Source of the DNA: Caballeronia sp. Lep1P3
Lineage (GTDB): Bacteria; Pseudomonadota; Gammaproteobacteria; Burkholderiales; Burkholderiaceae
NCBI RefSeq assembly: GCF_022879595.1
Contig: NZ_CP084265.1
Location: forward strand, 62,001 to 126,000
Direction of reading: 5' to 3'
Length of the DNA: 64,000 nt
The translations under genes and the position numbers were made by a program. This document shows, in pieces, positions 12,884-57,625 of the stretch. How positions within the stretch are numbered: the first letter of the stretch is position 1; every line of letters begins with the position of its first letter. The notes below the pieces were generated by a model, which saw only the letters and a program-made list of their open reading frames with translations, was not told the origin of the DNA and did no database searches.

Positions 12884-12929
12884 CGCCATCCGCGCCGGGC
12901 GCGTGCGACAGAAGCGCCGGAAAAAAGCC

Positions 12930-12990
12930 AAAAAAAAGCCCGCCTAGTTGGCGGGCTGAATCCATATCAGGAGGAGACATGGAGGAGACA
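12930..12990 (-). ncRNA. Candidate small RNA with two anti-Shine-Dalgarno motifs
   Basis: On the minus strand a promoter (12997-13025) is followed by about 61 bases with no long frame. CTCCTCC occurs twice. The first copy is at the 5' end; the second lies in the 13-base loop of a small hairpin (stem TCCAT/ATGGA, 12961-12983). The RNA ends in a strong terminator: AGCCCGCC/GGCGGGCT with a 5-base loop and eight U (12930-12957). Exposed CUCCUCC can pair with ribosome-binding sites, as in known anti-SD sRNAs of alpha- and betaproteobacteria. I did not match it to a named family. The only competing reading is a 55-codon frame on the other strand. Confidence 0.6.
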
Positions 12991-35904: not shown

Positions 35905-36183
35905 TTAGCGCTTGTTCACTGCGTCCTTGAATGCCTTGCCAGCCGTGAACTTGACGGTCTTGGCGGCCGGAATCTTGATGGATTCGCCGGTCTTGGGATT
36001 GCGGCCGGTGCGCGCTGCGCGCTTGCCCGAACCGAAGCTGCCGAAACCGATCAACTGCACTGCGTCACCTTTCGAGACAGCCTTCTTGATGACTTCGAGC
36101 AACGTGTCCAGCGTTTCGCCGGTTTGAGCTTTGCTGGCGCCAGTCTGAGCGGCTACGGCGTCGATCAATTCCTGTTTGTTCAT
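35905..36183 (-). CDS. hupB: HU family DNA-binding protein (HU-beta)
   Basis: The 92-residue nucleoid protein bends DNA as a dimer. It has the family start [20 protein letters not shown], the signature [20 protein letters not shown] and the Pro-tipped beta arm ([16 protein letters not shown]). HU also helps open replication origins, and a candidate origin lies about 2.3 kb away. The 430-base gap between its start and mnmC holds no convincing gene. Confidence 0.96.
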
Positions 36184-36613
36184 TAAGGTTCCTTTATCGG
36201 TTTAGGTTGACACGAACAGCGCGAACGCGCCGATTATACGTGCGCAAGCCGTCCAGTCGAGTAGCGGCGGCCTTCTGGCAGGGCCGCCCGGCGATTTGGC
36301 GCGCTTTCGCGCCACGCCGTCGGCGTTGCCTCGCATGGAAGCCCTCGGGCCGCCTCAAATCGAGGCGCTTCGTATGATAGCGCAGCGCAAACCCATACAG
36401 GACAAGGGTTTCAAAGATTTACCCTTATGTAACCGGGGGTTGCGAGGGGCGCCACGACGCCAGACGGACAAATCCGTCTCATGCCGCGCGAGCCGGTCGC
36501 AAACAATGGGCTTCCGTTGGTTTTTGCCAACGCTGTCGATCGTTCCGAGCCTTGTCTGGATTGGGTTTGGCGGCGTTACAGTGCGAATCCGCATCATCAT
36601 CCACATCCGACGC

Positions 36614-38452
36614 ATGACCGAATCATCGCTTTCCCGCGAGCCGCTTTCCTCGCTTCTGGCGCCTCACGATCTGCCCGCGCGCTGGAAAGATCGGCGCGTC
36701 TTCACCTTCGTCGATACGCACGCCCGCTTCGACAGCCACGGCAGCGTGCTTGCGGCCTGGCGCGCCTGGCGTAACGACGCCGCGCGCTGCGAGCGTCTGC
36801 ATCTCGTCGCGGTCGCGCCGCCGGATGCGCTCGCCGCACCGCAGCACGCCGACGAGGACGACCCGATCGCGCAGGAACTCGCCCGCGCGTGGCCGATGCC
36901 GGTCCCGGGCGTGCATCGTCTCGAATTCGAAGCGGGGCGCGTGGTGCTGACGCTTGCCATCGGCGAACCCGGCGACATGCTCGCGAAGCTGTGGCTGCGC
37001 GCCGATGCGTTCCACGTCGATGCCTCCGCCTGTCACGATTTCCGCAAGCTCTGCAAGACGCTCGCGCGCTTCGCCGGCGATGGCGCGACGCTCGACGTCA
37101 CCGCAATCGCAAAAGAATCGACATGCGCCGATTGGCTGCGCGCGCTCGCGTCATCGGGATTCGAATGCAATGCCACGCGCGACGGCATCGCGGGCCGATT
37201 CGCTCCGCGCTGGCGCGTGCGCCGCCACGAACCGCCCGCGGCGTGCGTCGCGGCGACGCGCGAAGCCATCGTGATCGGCGCGGGACTTGCGGGCTGCGCG
37301 GTGACTTCGCGGCTCGCGTCGCGCGGCTGGCGCGTCACGCTCATCGAGCGCCACGCGTCGCACGCGCGCGATGCATCGGGCAATCCGGCGGGCGTGTTTC
37401 ATCCGATCGTCTGGCGCGACGACAGCGTCGCCGCCCGCCTCACGCGCGCGGGCTTCCTCGACGCGCTGCGCCGATGGCACGCGCTCGAAATCGCCGGACA
37501 CGATCTGCATCGCAGCCGCGCGGGACTGCTGCAGATCGCGGACACGCCCGAAGACGCCGACGCGCTCGCCGCCGCCATCGCGCGCTTCTCGTATCCGCGC
37601 GACTACGTGACGGCGATGACGCGCGCCGAAGCGTCGGATGTCGCGGGCGTCGACGTGGCGCGCGGCGGCTGGTTCTTTCCTCGCGGCGGCGCCATTTCGC
37701 CCGCCGCCGTGTGCGCGGCGCAACTGGCGTTGGCGGGCGAGGCGCTCATCGCGCGCATGAATGCCGATGTCGCGCGCATCGCGTTCGATGGCCGGGACTG
37801 GCACGCGATCGATGCCGGCGGCGAAACCATTGCGCGCGCGCCCGTCGTCGTGCTCGCCAATGCGCACGATGCGGCGCGTCTCGCCGATCTCCACGGCGAA
37901 CCGACGCGCGGCGTGCGCGGCCAGCTCTCGATCGTGGACGCGAGCGCGCTCGACGCGCTGCGCGTGCCCGTCATCGGCGAAGGTTACGCGGTGCCGCTCG
38001 GCGCGCGGCGCACGCTCGTCGGCGCCACGTACGACATCGACGATGCGGACGCGTCCGTTCGCGAGTCCGGTCATGCGGAGAACGTGGAGCGCGTCGGCCG
38101 GATGCTGCCGGGACTCGGGCGCGCGCTCGCTTCTGCGGGGCGCGTGGCGTTTCGCTGCGTGACGAGCGATCGCATGCCGATGATCGGCCAATTGGCGGAC
38201 GAAGCCGCCGCGCGGCGCGACGCGCATCGGCTGTCCGGCGCGTGGCCGCTCGATTTGCCGCGTATGCCGGGCTTGTATGGCGCATTCGCGTTCGGTTCGC
38301 GCGGACTCGTCTGGGCGACGCTCGCGGCGGAGCTGATTGCGTCGCAGATCGAAGGCGAGCCGTGGCCGATCGAGCGCGAACTGGCCGAAGCCATCGATCC
38401 GGCGCGTTTCTTCTTGCGAGCGCTACGTCACGGAGAAATCGGCGCGGCGTAG
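36614..38452 (+). CDS. mnmC: MnmC-like tRNA modification enzyme, oxidase half intact, methyltransferase half degenerate
   Basis: The 612-residue protein matches MnmC, which finishes mnm5s2U34 in tRNA. The C-terminal FAD oxidase (residues about 215-600) is complete: AIVIGAGLAGCAVTSRLASR, GNPAGVFHP, and MPGLYGAFAFGSRGLVWATL. The N-terminal methyltransferase domain is shortened by about 50 residues at its start. Where the SAM loop GFGTGxNF belongs it reads THARFDSHGSVL, and where the DGFxPxxNPxxW signature belongs it reads DASACHDFRKL. Upstream in-frame sequence gives no missing N-terminus. The oxidase step should remain, but methylation by this protein looks lost. Nothing suggests a frameshift. 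Confidence 0.88.
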   Translation: MTESSLSREPLSSLLAPHDLPARWKDRRVFTFVDTHARFDSHGSVLAAWRAWRNDAARCERLHLVAVAPPDALAAPQHADEDDPIAQELARAWPMPVPGVHRLEFEAGRVVLTLAIGEPGDMLAKLWLRADAFHVDASACHDFRKLCKTLARFAGDGATLDVTAIAKESTCADWLRALASSGFECNATRDGIAGRFAPRWRVRRHEPPAACVAATREAIVIGAGLAGCAVTSRLASRGWRVTLIERHASHARDASGNPAGVFHPIVWRDDSVAARLTRAGFLDALRRWHALEIAGHDLHRSRAGLLQIADTPEDADALAAAIARFSYPRDYVTAMTRAEASDVAGVDVARGGWFFPRGGAISPAAVCAAQLALAGEALIARMNADVARIAFDGRDWHAIDAGGETIARAPVVVLANAHDAARLADLHGEPTRGVRGQLSIVDASALDALRVPVIGEGYAVPLGARRTLVGATYDIDDADASVRESGHAENVERVGRMLPGLGRALASAGRVAFRCVTSDRMPMIGQLADEAAARRDAHRLSGAWPLDLPRMPGLYGAFAFGSRGLVWATLAAELIASQIEGEPWPIERELAEAIDPARFFLRALRHGEIGAA

Positions 38453-38465
38453 TTATTCTCGGAAA

Positions 38466-38720
38466 TCTGTGGATAAGGCGGCGGATTCGGTCAGGAAGAG
38501 GTGTGCATTCGTTGTGCACGTAAACGGGACAACTGGCGCGTGTGGCTCGGACGGCCAAAAGTTGTTCCGGGTTAACGGCGCGGCGCGAACATGTTTACCG
38601 CGGGCTTCTCGGGTTTACAAATACTTGAAGTCAAAGGAAAAACACCTGTTATCCACAGATGGGGCGGCAGCTTGTTAACTACTACTACGTATATATACGG
38701 TAAACCTGTAAACCCCTGAA
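38466..38720. other. Candidate replication origin: inverted DnaA boxes, DnaA-trio-like and AT-rich tract
   Basis: Perfect DnaA boxes lie at 38468-38476 (TGTGGATAA) and 38649-38657 (TTATCCACA). After the second comes a GC-rich spacer (GGGGCGGCAG), then CTACTACTA (38679-38687) and TATATATA (38690-38697). GTAAAC or GTTTAC occurs five times (38520, 38593, 38613, 38700, 38708). No gene is seen between 38453 and 39256. To the left most genes read minus, to the right most read plus. dnaA and parAB are not in the window, so this is a proposal only. Confidence 0.5.
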
Positions 38721-39256
38721 GACGACGCCATCGGGAGGGCGAGTCCGAGCTTCGCGCCGATTGTCCTTTCCGGTGCGTTGCAAACCTTCGGTCGCTTATA
38801 CTTCATACGAATCATGAGCTTGCGGTCGTCTGTCCGGGCGTGGAGGTATGGCACAATCGCGCTTCTTCCTGCGTCGCGCCGTTCGCACCGCGCGCGCATC
38901 AATGGAACGGCGCTTGCAAGGCGACAGTCCGATCATCACGTCGCAACGTCGTTCACTGTTTCCGGCCAGCCTTCAGGTGAGCGCCGCGTTGCACCGCTTC
39001 CCAGCACCGATCGCATTGGCAATCGCAACAGGAATAGGACAAGCAGGCGCGACCGAACGGATCCGGGCGCGTCGTCCAATTCGTGCACGGCCGGTTCCGT
39101 GACGCCGTGTTCGTTCGATTTCGCTTTGCCCTGATGAACCTGCGCTCGTGACGGCAACGGGCCGGGCGCATGCGCGCCGCCTCGAGCGCGAGCGCTGCGC
39201 CGGTCACGCAACCGGACGTGCCCCTCTGCTGCAGCAACGAAGGAGAAGCCCATAAG

Positions 39257-40459
39257 ATGAACTCGGCATTTTCATTTCTGCCCGCCTGGCCACTGCAAAC
39301 CGACGCCATCCTGTGGGCGGGTCTCGCGCTCGTCACGGCCGGTCTCGCCGGAGAACTGCTGTGGCGCGCATGGCGGCTGCCGCGCATTACCGGCTATGCC
39401 GTGATCGGGCTGATCGCGGGCAATGCGGGGCTCGGCGTGATCGATTCGAGCGCGGCCGGCCTGTCGCGTCCGCTGCTCGATGTCGCGCTCGGGTTGCTGC
39501 TTTTCGAACTGGGCGGCCGGCTCGATCTGCGCTGGATCCGCCGAAATCCGTATCTGATACTTTCCAGCATCGCGGAAGCGACGCTCACCTTCGGTCTCGT
39601 CCTCATTGCGTTGATGCTGCTGCACGTACCGACGATGCCTTCCGTCGTGATCGCGGCCATCGCGATGGCGACCTCGCCCGCGATGGTCATTCAGCTGAAA
39701 ACCGAACTGCGCGCGGAAGGCCAGGTCACGCAGCGTCTGCTTACGCTCACGGCGCTCAACAGCATGTACGCGGTGATCGTCGAAAAGCTGGCGGCGGGCG
39801 TGCTGCATCAGGAAATCTACGGCAACGCGTTCGCGACGATCCTTCAGCCGCTCTATCTGCTGATCGGCTCGCTCGTGCTGGCGTTCTTGCTCGCGCGCGC
39901 ATGCAGTCTTCTTTATCGTCGCCTGAATGCGAACGATGAGCATTCCTTCGTGGCGCTTTTCGGGCTGGTTCTGCTCGCCATCGCGATTGCGCACATCTTC
40001 AAGCTCTCGACGATTCTCGCGCTGCTCGCGGCGGGCATCATCGTGAAGAACGCCGACGAGCGGCCGCAGCTCTGGCCCTCGCATTTCGGCTCGGCCGGCT
40101 GGCTTCTCACGGTGATTCTCTTCGCGCTCACGCTGACGTCGTTCGAGTGGCGCGACATCGCGCTCGGCGGGCTCGCGGCGCTCGGGCTGATCGTCGCGCG
40201 CTTCGTCGGCAAACTCGTCGGCGTGCTGATCTTCGCGAAACCGAGCGGGCTCGAATGGAAGCAGGGCGCGGCGCTCGGCGTCGCGCTCACGCCGATGTCC
40301 GCGCTCGCGTATCTCCTCGTCGACGATATGTACGTGCTTTATCCCGACTACGACCCGACCCTGCGCGCGATCATCATGTGCTCGATCGTGCTGCTGCAGA
40401 TCGTGACGCCGTTCCTGGTGTACCGTAGTTTGTCGGCGGTGGGCGAACGGCGCGAATGA
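39257..40459 (+). CDS. CPA2-type cation/proton antiporter (Kef-like membrane domain)
   Basis: The 400-residue protein has about 12 hydrophobic segments. It shows the Na+/H+ exchanger fold with RLPRITGYAVIGLIAGN near the N-terminus, LLFELGGRLDLRWIRRNP, ATSPAMVIQLKTELRAEGQ and LALTPMSALAYLL-like sequence near the end. No RCK/TrkA-N domain follows, so it is the transporter part alone. It would exchange K+ or Na+ for protons in the inner membrane. GAAGGAGAAG stands before the ATG. ybdK follows 35 bases later. Confidence 0.85.
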   Translation: MNSAFSFLPAWPLQTDAILWAGLALVTAGLAGELLWRAWRLPRITGYAVIGLIAGNAGLGVIDSSAAGLSRPLLDVALGLLLFELGGRLDLRWIRRNPYLILSSIAEATLTFGLVLIALMLLHVPTMPSVVIAAIAMATSPAMVIQLKTELRAEGQVTQRLLTLTALNSMYAVIVEKLAAGVLHQEIYGNAFATILQPLYLLIGSLVLAFLLARACSLLYRRLNANDEHSFVALFGLVLLAIAIAHIFKLSTILALLAAGIIVKNADERPQLWPSHFGSAGWLLTVILFALTLTSFEWRDIALGGLAALGLIVARFVGKLVGVLIFAKPSGLEWKQGAALGVALTPMSALAYLLVDDMYVLYPDYDPTLRAIIMCSIVLLQIVTPFLVYRSLSAVGERRE

Positions 40460-40494: not shown

Positions 40495-41610
40495 ATGGCA
40501 CTAGAACCTTTCATCAACTCCGAACCGTTCACCTTCGGCGTGGAACTGGAGATCCAGGTCGTCAATACGCACGACTACGATCTGACCAAGGCCGCGTCGG
40601 ACCTCATGCGTCTCATCAAGGACGAGAAGATTCCCGGCAACATCACGCCGGAAATCACCGAGAGCATGATCGAACTGTCGACGGGCATCTGCACGACGCA
40701 CGACCAGGCGCTCACCGATCTGCGCAAGATTCGCGATACGCTCGTCGCCGCGGCGGATCAACTGAACGTCGGGCTCGCGGGCGGCGGCACGCATGCGTTC
40801 CAGCAGTGGAGCGACCGGCAGATCTACGACGCGCCGCGCTTTCAGTACATCTCCGAGCTGTACGGCTATCTCGCCAAACAGTTCACCGTGTTCGGGCAGC
40901 ACGTGCATATCGGCTGTCCCGATCCGAACAGCGCGCTCTTTCTGCTGCACTCGATGTCGCGCTACATCCCGCATTTCATCGCACTGTCGGCTTCGTCGCC
41001 GTACATTCAGGGCGTCGATACGGGCTTCCATTCGGCGCGTCTGAATTCGGTATTCGCGTTTCCGCTGTCGGGGCGCGCGCCGTTCGTGCTGACGTGGGAC
41101 AGCTTCGAGGAGTACTTCTCGAAGATGGTCCATACGGGCGTGGTCAACAGCATGAAGGACTTCTACTGGGACATCCGTCCGAAGCCCGGCTTCGGCACCA
41201 TCGAAGTCCGCGTGATGGATACGCCGCTTTCCGTCGATCGCGCGGCGGCCATTGCGTGCTACATCCAGACGCTCTCGCGTTATCTGGTGCTCGACAAACC
41301 GCTCACGCCGCAGGAAGACGACTACCTCGTCTACACGTTCAACCGCTTCGAGGCGTGCCGCTTCGGGATGGAAGGCACATGCATTCATCCGCAGACGGGC
41401 GAGCGCCGCACGATTGCCGAAGACATTCTCGCGACGCTCGATGTCCTCGCGCCCCACGCGGAAGCGCTCGGCTCGCAAGCGGCGCTCGCGCAGATCGCCG
41501 ACATCGCGCGCGGCGGCATCAACGATGCAACGTGGCTGCGCGGCGTATTCGACAAGGAAAGATCGCTGCATGAAGCCGTGCGGCAGCAGTGCTTACAGTG
41601 GCGTGCTTAA
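40495..41610 (+). CDS. YbdK family carboxylate-amine ligase (glutamate-cysteine ligase 2)
   Basis: The 371-residue enzyme belongs to the GCS2 family. Signatures are [20 protein letters not shown] at the N-terminus, [19 protein letters not shown], the metal and substrate region [11 protein letters not shown], and [20 protein letters not shown]. coli YbdK shows only weak gamma-glutamylcysteine ligase activity, so the true substrate is not settled. It is distinct in sequence from gshA at 15 kb. A terminator lies about 80 bases after its stop. Confidence 0.92.
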
Positions 41611-41732: not shown

Positions 41733-42001
41733 TCTGTATGAAATGCGTGCATGCAGCGCGGAATAAAACACGCGGGCGAACGTTTGACGGGAAACGAATG
41801 CAGCGTATCTCAAGGTTTCCGATTGACGTCCGTATACCAACGTAGTGGCGCTCGCTTCGTTCAAGGGTTGCTGTGGAGAACGCAGAAATTTTTGGTAATC
41901 AGTGCACCTTCGGCAAGCAGCAAGCGCTCAAAAGCACAGTGTTCCAGGCAGCGTGAAGCCCTGGCAGGCATCGCGAATGCGAAGACAACGAAATACGGCG
42001 C

Positions 42002-42036
42002 TTTTCCACGGGTTATCCACAGTTTTGCGTGGATAA
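42002..42036. promoter_or_regulatory. Second DnaA-box cluster
   Basis: TTTTCCACG at 42002, TTATCCACA at 42013-42021 and the reverse box ending in GTGGATAA at 42029-42036 lie within 35 bases, then AT-rich AATTAAGG. TTATCCAC-N8-GTGGATAA is a perfect inverted repeat. The gap 41733-42342 otherwise shows no gene I trust. Confidence 0.6.
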
Positions 42037-42342: not shown

Positions 42343-42987
42343 ATGAGTGAAGGCGTTTACGGAGAGCAGGCGACGGGGCGGGTGACCCACGGCCTGCTGC
42401 GGCTGAGCACGGCGATGCGCAGCCAGGCATGGGAATGGGCGGAGGGCGCGGGGCTCACGCCGACCCAGGGTGAAATTCTCGTGCTGCTGATGCAGCGCAA
42501 GGGGCCGATGCGCCTCGGCGAGATCGCGCGTGAAACGGCGTTGACCGCGGCGACCACGAGCGATGCCGTCAGCACGCTCGAAGGCAAGGGCCTCGTCGAG
42601 AAGCGCCGCGCTATCGACGATGGCCGCGCGCTGGCTGTGCGCCTGACCGCACGCGGCCGCACGGCGGCGAAAAAAGCGCTGCAATGGCCGGACTTTCTCT
42701 CGAAGGCGGTCGGCACGCTGCGCGAAGACGAGCAGGCGACGTTCTATCGCACGCTGCTCAAGACCATTCGCCAGCTCGAAGCGCAGCAGCAGATTCCGGC
42801 GCATCGCATGTGCCTTTCGTGCACGCACTTCGAGGTCAGCAAGAACCCGAAGAAGGTGCCGCATCACTGCGCGCTGCTGCAGATCGACATGGCGGATACC
42901 GACCTGCGTCTCGACTGTTCGGTATACGAAGAAGGCGATCTCAACGAGCAGAAGAAAAGCTGGAAGATCTTCGCGCAGATCGGCTGA
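42343..42987 (+). CDS. MarR family regulator with a cysteine-containing C-terminal extension
   Basis: The 214-residue protein has a MarR winged-helix domain over residues about 15-145 (GLTPTQGEILVLLMQRKGPM, TLEGKGLVEKRRAIDDGRAL). A C-terminal tail of about 60 residues follows with four Cys in the order CLSC, HHCALL, LDCSV. This could hold an iron-sulfur cluster or zinc and so sense redox or metal, which is an inference. The neighbours give no clear target. It follows a 730-base gap that contains DnaA boxes. Confidence 0.85.
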   Translation: MSEGVYGEQATGRVTHGLLRLSTAMRSQAWEWAEGAGLTPTQGEILVLLMQRKGPMRLGEIARETALTAATTSDAVSTLEGKGLVEKRRAIDDGRALAVRLTARGRTAAKKALQWPDFLSKAVGTLREDEQATFYRTLLKTIRQLEAQQQIPAHRMCLSCTHFEVSKNPKKVPHHCALLQIDMADTDLRLDCSVYEEGDLNEQKKSWKIFAQIG

Positions 42988-57521: not shown

Positions 57522-57625
57522 CTAGTTCTGATGCACCCAGATTTTTGAGGTGGAGAACGAGGAGACATGAGGCACAAAGTGCCCGATCGAAAGCGCTGTT
57601 GGATGAGTCCAACAGCGCTTTTTTA
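57522..57625 (+). ncRNA. Candidate small RNA or short leader transcript
   Basis: From the promoter at 57488-57516 about 100 bases run to a strong terminator (AAAGCGCTGTTGGA/TCCAACAGCGCTTT, loop TGAG, then TTTT, 57590-57624). A small hairpin GGCAC/GTGCC lies before it. The RNA also contains GAGGAGACATG and a 24-codon frame (57567-57641) that runs through the terminator, so it could instead encode a leader peptide. Next gene starts 230 bases later. Confidence 0.45.

Follow-up and report, generated by a model that had tools for sequence, protein, structure and literature searches.

Where does the main chromosome of a Caballeronia-like bacterium start to replicate, when a candidate origin lies ~100 kb from dnaA? 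In bacteria, an origin usually sits beside that gene. The window, which is the whole stretch of 64,000 nucleotides analysed here (C1:62001–126000), comes from a six-contig, 6.18-Mb genome (G000) in which contig C1 measures 3,096,937 bp and has dnaA as its first gene. A sequence-only reading of the window had proposed a chromosomal origin between mnmC and an antiporter gene, away from dnaA, and this proposal is supported by the anatomy of the site, its conservation and the GC skew of relatives. On the sequence, conservation, relatives' skew, neighbouring genes and copy number observed here, we consider the locus, called site A (38467–38713, inside the mnmC–antiporter gap), to be the DnaA-dependent oriC of the main chromosome with a probability of roughly 0.88.

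Gene neighbourhood of site A

By its glutamate-cysteine ligase family 2 (GCS2) protein, the window is nearest among named loci to Burkholderia sp. 8Y (98% identical), with Caballeronia species next. The genes and other features are collected in Table 1. The antiporter gene is listed from an ATG at 39170, with the ATG at 39257 being the likelier start, and the distance from the mnmC stop at 38452 is 717 bp with the former start codon or 804 bp with the latter, in keeping with the gene-free gap of about 800 bases first described. The HU gene is indeed close by. That gidA and parAB had been noted as absent from the window is consistent with the gene order gidA-gidB-parA-parB (C1:126201–130669), which starts ~200 bp past the right edge. 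Exact parS matches occur twice in the genome, at C1 126165 and 127707, and both of these sites lie, together with the four genes, 25.5-30 kb to the right of site A. Among the neighbour genes scanned around site A, none belonged to a rep family. To the right of site A, a 40-nt block at 38859-38898 has a within-genus identity of 0.87, above most of the gap, and is possibly the antiporter promoter. Farther along the window, the Burkholderia sRNA ncS01 (RF02865) was found above gathering score at 57524-57624 (+).

Table 1. Features of the candidate origin and its surroundings (window positions unless a contig is named)
Feature	Position	Strand	Remarks
HU-family DNA-binding protein gene	35905..36183	-	PF00216
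mnmC	36296..38452	+	left neighbour; TIGR03197 above cut-off; full-length NF002480 535.1 bits, cut-off 540
Left DnaA box CTGTGGATAA	38467..38476	-	reads TTATCCACAG on -; methylation-type extension
GTWWAC hexamers (seven)	38520, 38571, 38593, 38613, 38674, 38700, 38708	+	span 38520..38713 (194 bp)
Right DnaA box TTATCCACAG	38649..38658	+	perfect; presumed platform of unwinding element
GC-rich spacer, 13 nt	38659..38671	+	length fixed, sequence variable (alignment)
TTGTTAAC	38672..38679	+	near-invariant; includes GTWWAC site
Three DnaA trios CTACTACTA	38679..38687	+	3'-GATGATGAT-5' on lower strand; CTA trios
AT-rich tail CGTATATATACGGTAAACCTGTAAAC	38688..38713	+	presumed duplex-opening site
Na+/H+ exchanger-family antiporter gene ("kefB" for short)	39257..40459	+	PF00999
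GCS2 gene ("gshA" for short)	40495..41610	+	PF04107; between sites A and B
Site B, mirror copy of module	41840..42036	-	boxes 41872 (1 mismatch), 42013 (perfect), 42028 (1 mismatch)
MarR-family regulator gene	42343..42987	+	right of site B; BCAL0003 of J2315 likewise called MarR
Copy C	G000:C1:260393-260456 (L002:1499-1562; L219 ~3395)	same as A	profile E 1.1e-13

Anatomy of site A

Two perfect, inverted DnaA boxes are present in the gap, as the sequence-only reading had it. The genome holds 18 perfect boxes, and these two, 181 bp apart, with a third 3.4 kb rightward, form the DnaA-box cluster looked for in an oriC. In relatives, the left box is one half of an inverted box pair; the partner half, TTATCCAC[G], is well conserved across a 75-sequence alignment and degenerate in the window (38453-38461). 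To the right, the order of box, GC-rich spacer, trios on one strand and AT-rich DNA was found where it had been described. The tail contains a TATATATA run at 38690-38697, and the AT-richness of 38674-38713, the putative duplex-opening region beside the box, is matched by ~0.1% of the 40-nt stretches taken at 5-nt steps along the window. An Rfam search of site A gave no match up to E 1.

The likeness of this arrangement to the unwinding element (BUS) of Bacillus subtilis, which had also been pointed out, stands in part. Box, GC-rich spacer, 3'-GAT-5' trios and AT-rich tract follow one another in the same order as described in the covered portion of the BUS paper (PMC8287927), and the three trios have the conserved middle A and the proper strand. 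The rule on spacing is broken, however, as site A has one clear box with 21 nt to the first trio, while the covered portion of the same paper gives a ceiling of 16 nt for the box-to-trio spacer in its search, so that site A would not be classed with the BUS on that count. Loss of a second box would account for this 21-nt spacer, as is suggested by a tandem-box relative of the same family (L301, in G122), which has the textbook order of tandem boxes followed by four CTA trios in the same register as A. Two further G122 matches and one G124 match have four trios with the second box weak or absent; the genera of the G122 type are, at a guess, Ralstonia- or Cupriavidus-like. By analogy, site A should work like the BUS. 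As far as it was covered, the main text of the BUS survey names neither Burkholderia nor Ralstonia (PMC8287927).

Of the seven GTWWAC hexamers at site A, five are the GTAAAC/GTTTAC copies noted before and two are additional GTTAAC copies. The window contains 12 such hexamers, 7 at site A and 5 elsewhere, a total no higher than chance; their clustering is non-random, since the largest 195-bp cluster held 3 in 300 Markov-1 sequences of equal composition. In B. cenocepacia origins, methylated CACAG has been reported at DnaA boxes and methylated GTWWAC between the boxes (PMC7364216, in part), and both window boxes read TTATCCACAG with GTWWAC between them, a fit to that pattern. By this analogy, the hexamers are better read as methylation sites than as the iterons that had been suggested.

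Conservation of site A in relatives

Conservation was assessed in 80 named loci and the window (81 in all) by searching to the left of the GCS2 gene, with an inverted pair accepted in the wanted spacing class at up to 2 mismatches in the pair. Inverted boxes were found in 75 of the 81 loci, the window included, with a spacing of 180 or 181 bp in 70 of those 75. The six loci lacking the pair were L076 (a short contig with the right box only), three Pandoraea loci (L140–L142), and L144 and L146 from other genera. Between mnmC and the antiporter gene, Caballeronia, Paraburkholderia, Trinickia, Burkholderia, Mycetohabitans and others share the boxes with their spacing, the trios and the AT tail, which bears out the conservation that the origin proposal had called for; A also occupies this position in L113, the named B. 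cenocepacia locus.

In the alignment, the right-hand element consists of GTTATCCACAG, a variable stretch of 13 nt and TTGTTAACTNYTAYTAYGTATACATAC, with TTGTTAA invariant in 39/39 aligned copies of A and B. A box-to-core distance of 23 is shared by 76/76 A copies and 44/46 B copies. Counting one copy per locus and allowing any third base in the first trio, the trio pattern NTN-YTA-YTA was found in 70 of the 76 loci possessing an A core. In a within-genus control of 9 sequences, identity per 40 nt was 0.62–0.81 in the module and 0.41–0.89 in the remaining gap, so that within the genus site A stands only moderately above the rest of the gap.

GC skew and gene strand around the putative origin

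Cumulative GC skew was calculated on fetched stretches (380–420 kb each in three relatives), not on whole replicons. In G010 (420 kb), the minimum lies at -130,000 relative to dnaA, with A at -126,795 and B at -129,926; in G109 (380 kb), it lies at 88,000, with A at 84,952 and dnaA at ~400; and in Burkholderia sp. 8Y (400 kb), it lies at 2,841,000, with A at 2,830,343 and dnaA at 2,944,634. In all three relatives fetched, the skew minimum falls at the orthologous site, 3.2 kb (G010), 3.0 kb (G109) and 10.7 kb (8Y) from A and 88-131 kb from dnaA. A minimum within about 5 kb of the site, as had been expected for the whole replicon, was seen in these fetched parts of G010 and G109; that of 8Y lay beyond this distance, as did the raw one of the window genome. 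Two-line fits break at -147,000 (G010), 70,000 (G109) and 2,810,000 (8Y), 15–20 kb from A. In both G010 and G109, the skew keeps its direction at dnaA, and the turn comes near A.

For the window genome, a stretch of -117 to +270 kb was fetched, and its raw minimum, at -67 kb, is away from A. Compared with 8Y, the dnaA-bearing stretch of this genome (~-80 to +75 kb) is made up of at least two pieces and runs opposite to the DNA on either side. When -80 to +70 kb was computationally turned back, the minimum moved to 90 kb, 10 kb from A (100.5 kb); the right boundary was set at 70 kb where the mapped one is ~75 kb, and the rearrangement amounts to more than one simple inversion. The rearranged dnaA segment probably accounts for the raw minimum lying away from A, and the GC skew of the window genome taken alone is misleading because this segment is rearranged relative to 8Y. 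In the same comparison, one synteny-block end at ~12897-12990 lies within ~100 bp of a Betaproteobacteria toxic sRNA (RF02278, 12930-12990) and another at 2031-2236 lies ~60-130 bp from a tRNA gene (2031-2103); both are possible recombination points of the dnaA segment.

Gene-strand bias flips at A from -0.54 to +0.41 in G010 and from -0.59 to +0.40 in G109, and is less sharp in 8Y (-0.94, then +0.02, -0.07 and +0.41). For the window itself, genes had been described as mostly minus on the left and mostly plus on the right. A crude open reading frame bias per 20 kb agrees with this on the right (+0.33/+0.94) and on the near left (-0.23), but not further left (+0.62, in largely rearranged DNA), nor for mnmC, which lies left of A on the plus strand.

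KOPS polarity was also considered as an origin indicator and was rejected, being sparse near site A and partly contrary among the matches listed. Among these, plus-strand KOPS occur at 24, 40 and 86 kb, all three on the side of A where they would not be expected and the last of them outside the rearranged segment, and a polarity switch at 1.53-1.56 Mb would suit a dnaA origin better than A.

A mirror copy and further copies of the module

Past the GCS2 gene, the minus strand repeats the module of A, so that A and this site B have the antiporter and GCS2 genes between them and their unwinding parts pointing towards one another. In the window, B has kept its box pair (42013, 42028) and the weak box at 41872, while its trio part, intact in many relatives, is degenerate. 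A simple-pattern tally of the 81 loci gave A and B in 42, A only in 33, B only in 4 and neither in 2, the count for B being a lower bound (at least 42/81) as the simple pattern undercounts B. When 8 of the 33 'A only' loci were searched again with a profile, B was found in 3 (L137 at 4e-14, L104 at 1e-5 and L091 at 2e-4). The three Pandoraea loci have B only, without A. Tandem module pairs to the left of the antiporter gene were seen at L306:3704-4265, in a single mnmC-side gap, and likewise at L143:7371-7940 in Robbsia andropogonis.

The profile was built from 39 A and B copies, with the window excluded, and run on whole genomes. In the window it matched 38648-38716 (E 2e-19) and did not detect site B at E up to 1. 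Matches were obtained in all 37 genomes of the same genus, G000 included (four in one, three in 24, two in 10 and one in 2), and in 124 of 150 genomes of the family, covering 15 of the 24 genera sampled (E up to 0.01, some weak); both of these runs used stricter filters under which weak matches were lost. Among 40 genomes of named relatives, 39 matched, 37 of them with two or more copies and seven with four. The 40/40 closed or nearly closed genomes that matched had been pre-selected as matching and give no rate; the copies share one contig in 30/30 closed or nearly closed genomes with several matches. Outside the family, 1 of 24 genomes from other families of the order matched, with two tandem copies. 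A pair of tandem origin-type modules, 391 bp apart and with very AT-rich tails, stands near an aspartate carbamoyltransferase gene at L231 (G042:C1:5138109 and 5138500, minus strand), a locus from another family of the order.

The window genome has two profile matches only, A and a copy C directly behind glmU–glmS, 160 kb from site A. Copy C is nearly intact, with the box TTATCCACC and a third trio CCA, and a third copy in G031 likewise stands behind glmS (L224). In five genomes of other genera, a copy D was found at a distance of 49–61 kb from A and on the opposite strand, with eutB (L294) as a neighbour and exaC near by (L297) where neighbours could be named. The trio pattern is broken in 6/76 A, 12/47 B, 6/12 third and 3/5 D copies, and GTTAAC is kept in 73/76, 44/47, 12/12 and 5/5, respectively. 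This retention of GTTAAC with often broken trios suggests that the extra copies may have kept DnaA binding or methylation and partly lost opening.

Other readings of the locus

In order to place the start of replication elsewhere, one could argue that it lies next to dnaA and that site A is only a DnaA-binding regulatory site. A perfect box ~0.2 kb before the C1 start (C1:3096722), if C1 is circular, a skew low at 3 kb in the fetched 1-160 kb, the local skew dip at dnaA in 8Y, and, among the matches listed, the three plus-strand KOPS and a polarity switch that would halve the circle from dnaA all go with this reading. Yet in the window genome the profile finds no match within 17-20 kb on either side of dnaA (L047, C1:1-20000; L066, the last 17 kb of C1), the skew of G010 and G109 turns near A and not at dnaA, and the rearrangement of the dnaA segment relative to 8Y can account for the skew as well as for two of the three KOPS, leaving a start beside dnaA quite improbable. 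It is likewise very unlikely that B is the real oriC and A an accessory copy. Pandoraea (L140-L142) has kept B with an intact core and has no A, and in G010 the skew minimum is nearer to B (0.1 kb) than to A (3.2 kb), a difference beyond the resolution of the skew. However, the trio part of B has been lost in the window, in 8Y and in most Burkholderia sensu stricto loci, where A is intact, and a perfect box is found at A in 70/76 loci versus 5/47 at B.

Reading the GTWWAC cluster as the iteron array of a plasmid-type origin finds some encouragement in seven hexamers within 194 bp, but is scarcely credible. The hexamers are dispersed, neither tandem nor long, and the tandem long iterons beside a rep gene that mark such origins are absent from site A; for the secondary replicons of B. 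cenocepacia, the reported iterons are 19-21-mers and stand in regions that also hold a repA-like gene (PMC4948915, in part). A BLAST search of 72,556 plasmid records with site A gave no match at E 1e-5, and the replicon of site A carries dnaA, gidA and parABS.

A different departure from a single oriC at A is that the main chromosome of this clade holds several start modules (A/B, C and D), of which more than one fires or has fired. Pointers to multiple starts are a second skew minimum in 8Y at 2,687,000, 4 kb from C (2,683,119), a shallow one in the window genome at 248,000, 12 kb from C, and the almost flat skew between D and A in G109. Against this, the strand profile has no gene-strand flip at C, which demoted the two-origin reading to a low-probability case; 8Y has a somewhat smaller dip also at dnaA, where the profile has no match; trios are broken more often in C and D than in A; and clear roof profiles are reported for all chromosomes profiled, Burkholderia and Cupriavidus strains included, in the covered part of PMC13342612. 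We regard multiple firing as doubtful, and take B, C and D most likely to be extra DnaA-binding loci that would titrate or modulate DnaA, or relic origins.

Relation to known origins

Published marker-frequency and methylation work on B. cenocepacia appears to concern the locus of site A. In that organism, chromosome 1 replicates in both directions from the predicted origin according to marker frequency in 10-kb bins, and the exact origin site was left open by the authors (PMC4948915, in part). These marker-frequency data agree with a start at site A. Strain J2315, of the same family, has a low-numbered MarR gene (BCAL0003) and GidA gene (BCAL0024), both of which have their counterparts near site A, from which we infer that nucleotide 1 of the J2315 record corresponds to the site A locus. 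Its chromosome 1 oriC resembles site A further in having boxes ending in CACAG with GTWWAC between them and dnaA far away by number (BCAL0423). In the portions of PMC4948915 and PMC7364216 covered, the accounts of this oriC differ from ours in being without trios, a mirror copy or dispersed copies.

Similar displacement is known in the family. In Cupriavidus metallidurans CH34, the skew transition is separated from dnaA by ~90 kb and has three perfect boxes within 213 nt, and there is also a single perfect box upstream of dnaA, as in the window genome if C1 is circular; trios and copies are not mentioned in the covered part of that account (PMC2864759). For Ralstonia pickettii 12D, two predicted origins 291 kb apart have been reported (PMC4403523, in part). 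The place of the origin is of a known kind, already implied for the family (PMC2864759, PMC4948915), and the new part is the multicopy, mirror-image layout of the ~250-bp module. In the literature searched, supplements aside, no description of trios, mirror copies or dispersed copies in Burkholderiaceae was found.

In bipartite origins, as in Helicobacter pylori and B. subtilis, the DnaA boxes form more than one cluster close to the origin, and in Escherichia coli the datA/DARS loci bind DnaA at a distance from it. The arrangement found here is like both in these respects. It differs from them in that several copies carry a whole unwinding core and that two are mirrored around kefB-gshA, not dnaA.

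Proposed initiation at site A and its implications

Taking site A as the oriC, initiation may be pictured as follows, with DnaA binding and duplex opening inferred, like the parts played by B, C and D. DnaA would bind both inverted boxes, which are 181 bp apart, and a DnaA-ATP filament would extend from the right box (38649) over the 21-nt spacer to the lower-strand trios at 38679-38687. The AT-rich tail right of the trios would be opened by this filament, and the helicase would be loaded there. Re-initiation would probably be tuned by methylation, both at GTWWAC and at the CACAG with which the boxes end, and new origins would be segregated by the ParABS system beside gidA, 25 kb rightward. 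B, C (in the window genome) and D (in other genera) share the unwinding core.

In total, a 74-nt unwinding element is proposed as the start of a large bacterial chromosome; the profile detects it in 124/150 genomes and 15/24 family genera sampled, and two to four copies are kept in most genomes (35/37 in the genus and 37/40 among named relatives). If the reading with several firing modules were true, DnaA would initiate replication of this bacterial chromosome at more than one site. The extra modules raise the question of whether they are DnaA sinks or switches, and whether the chromosome may start from more than one place.
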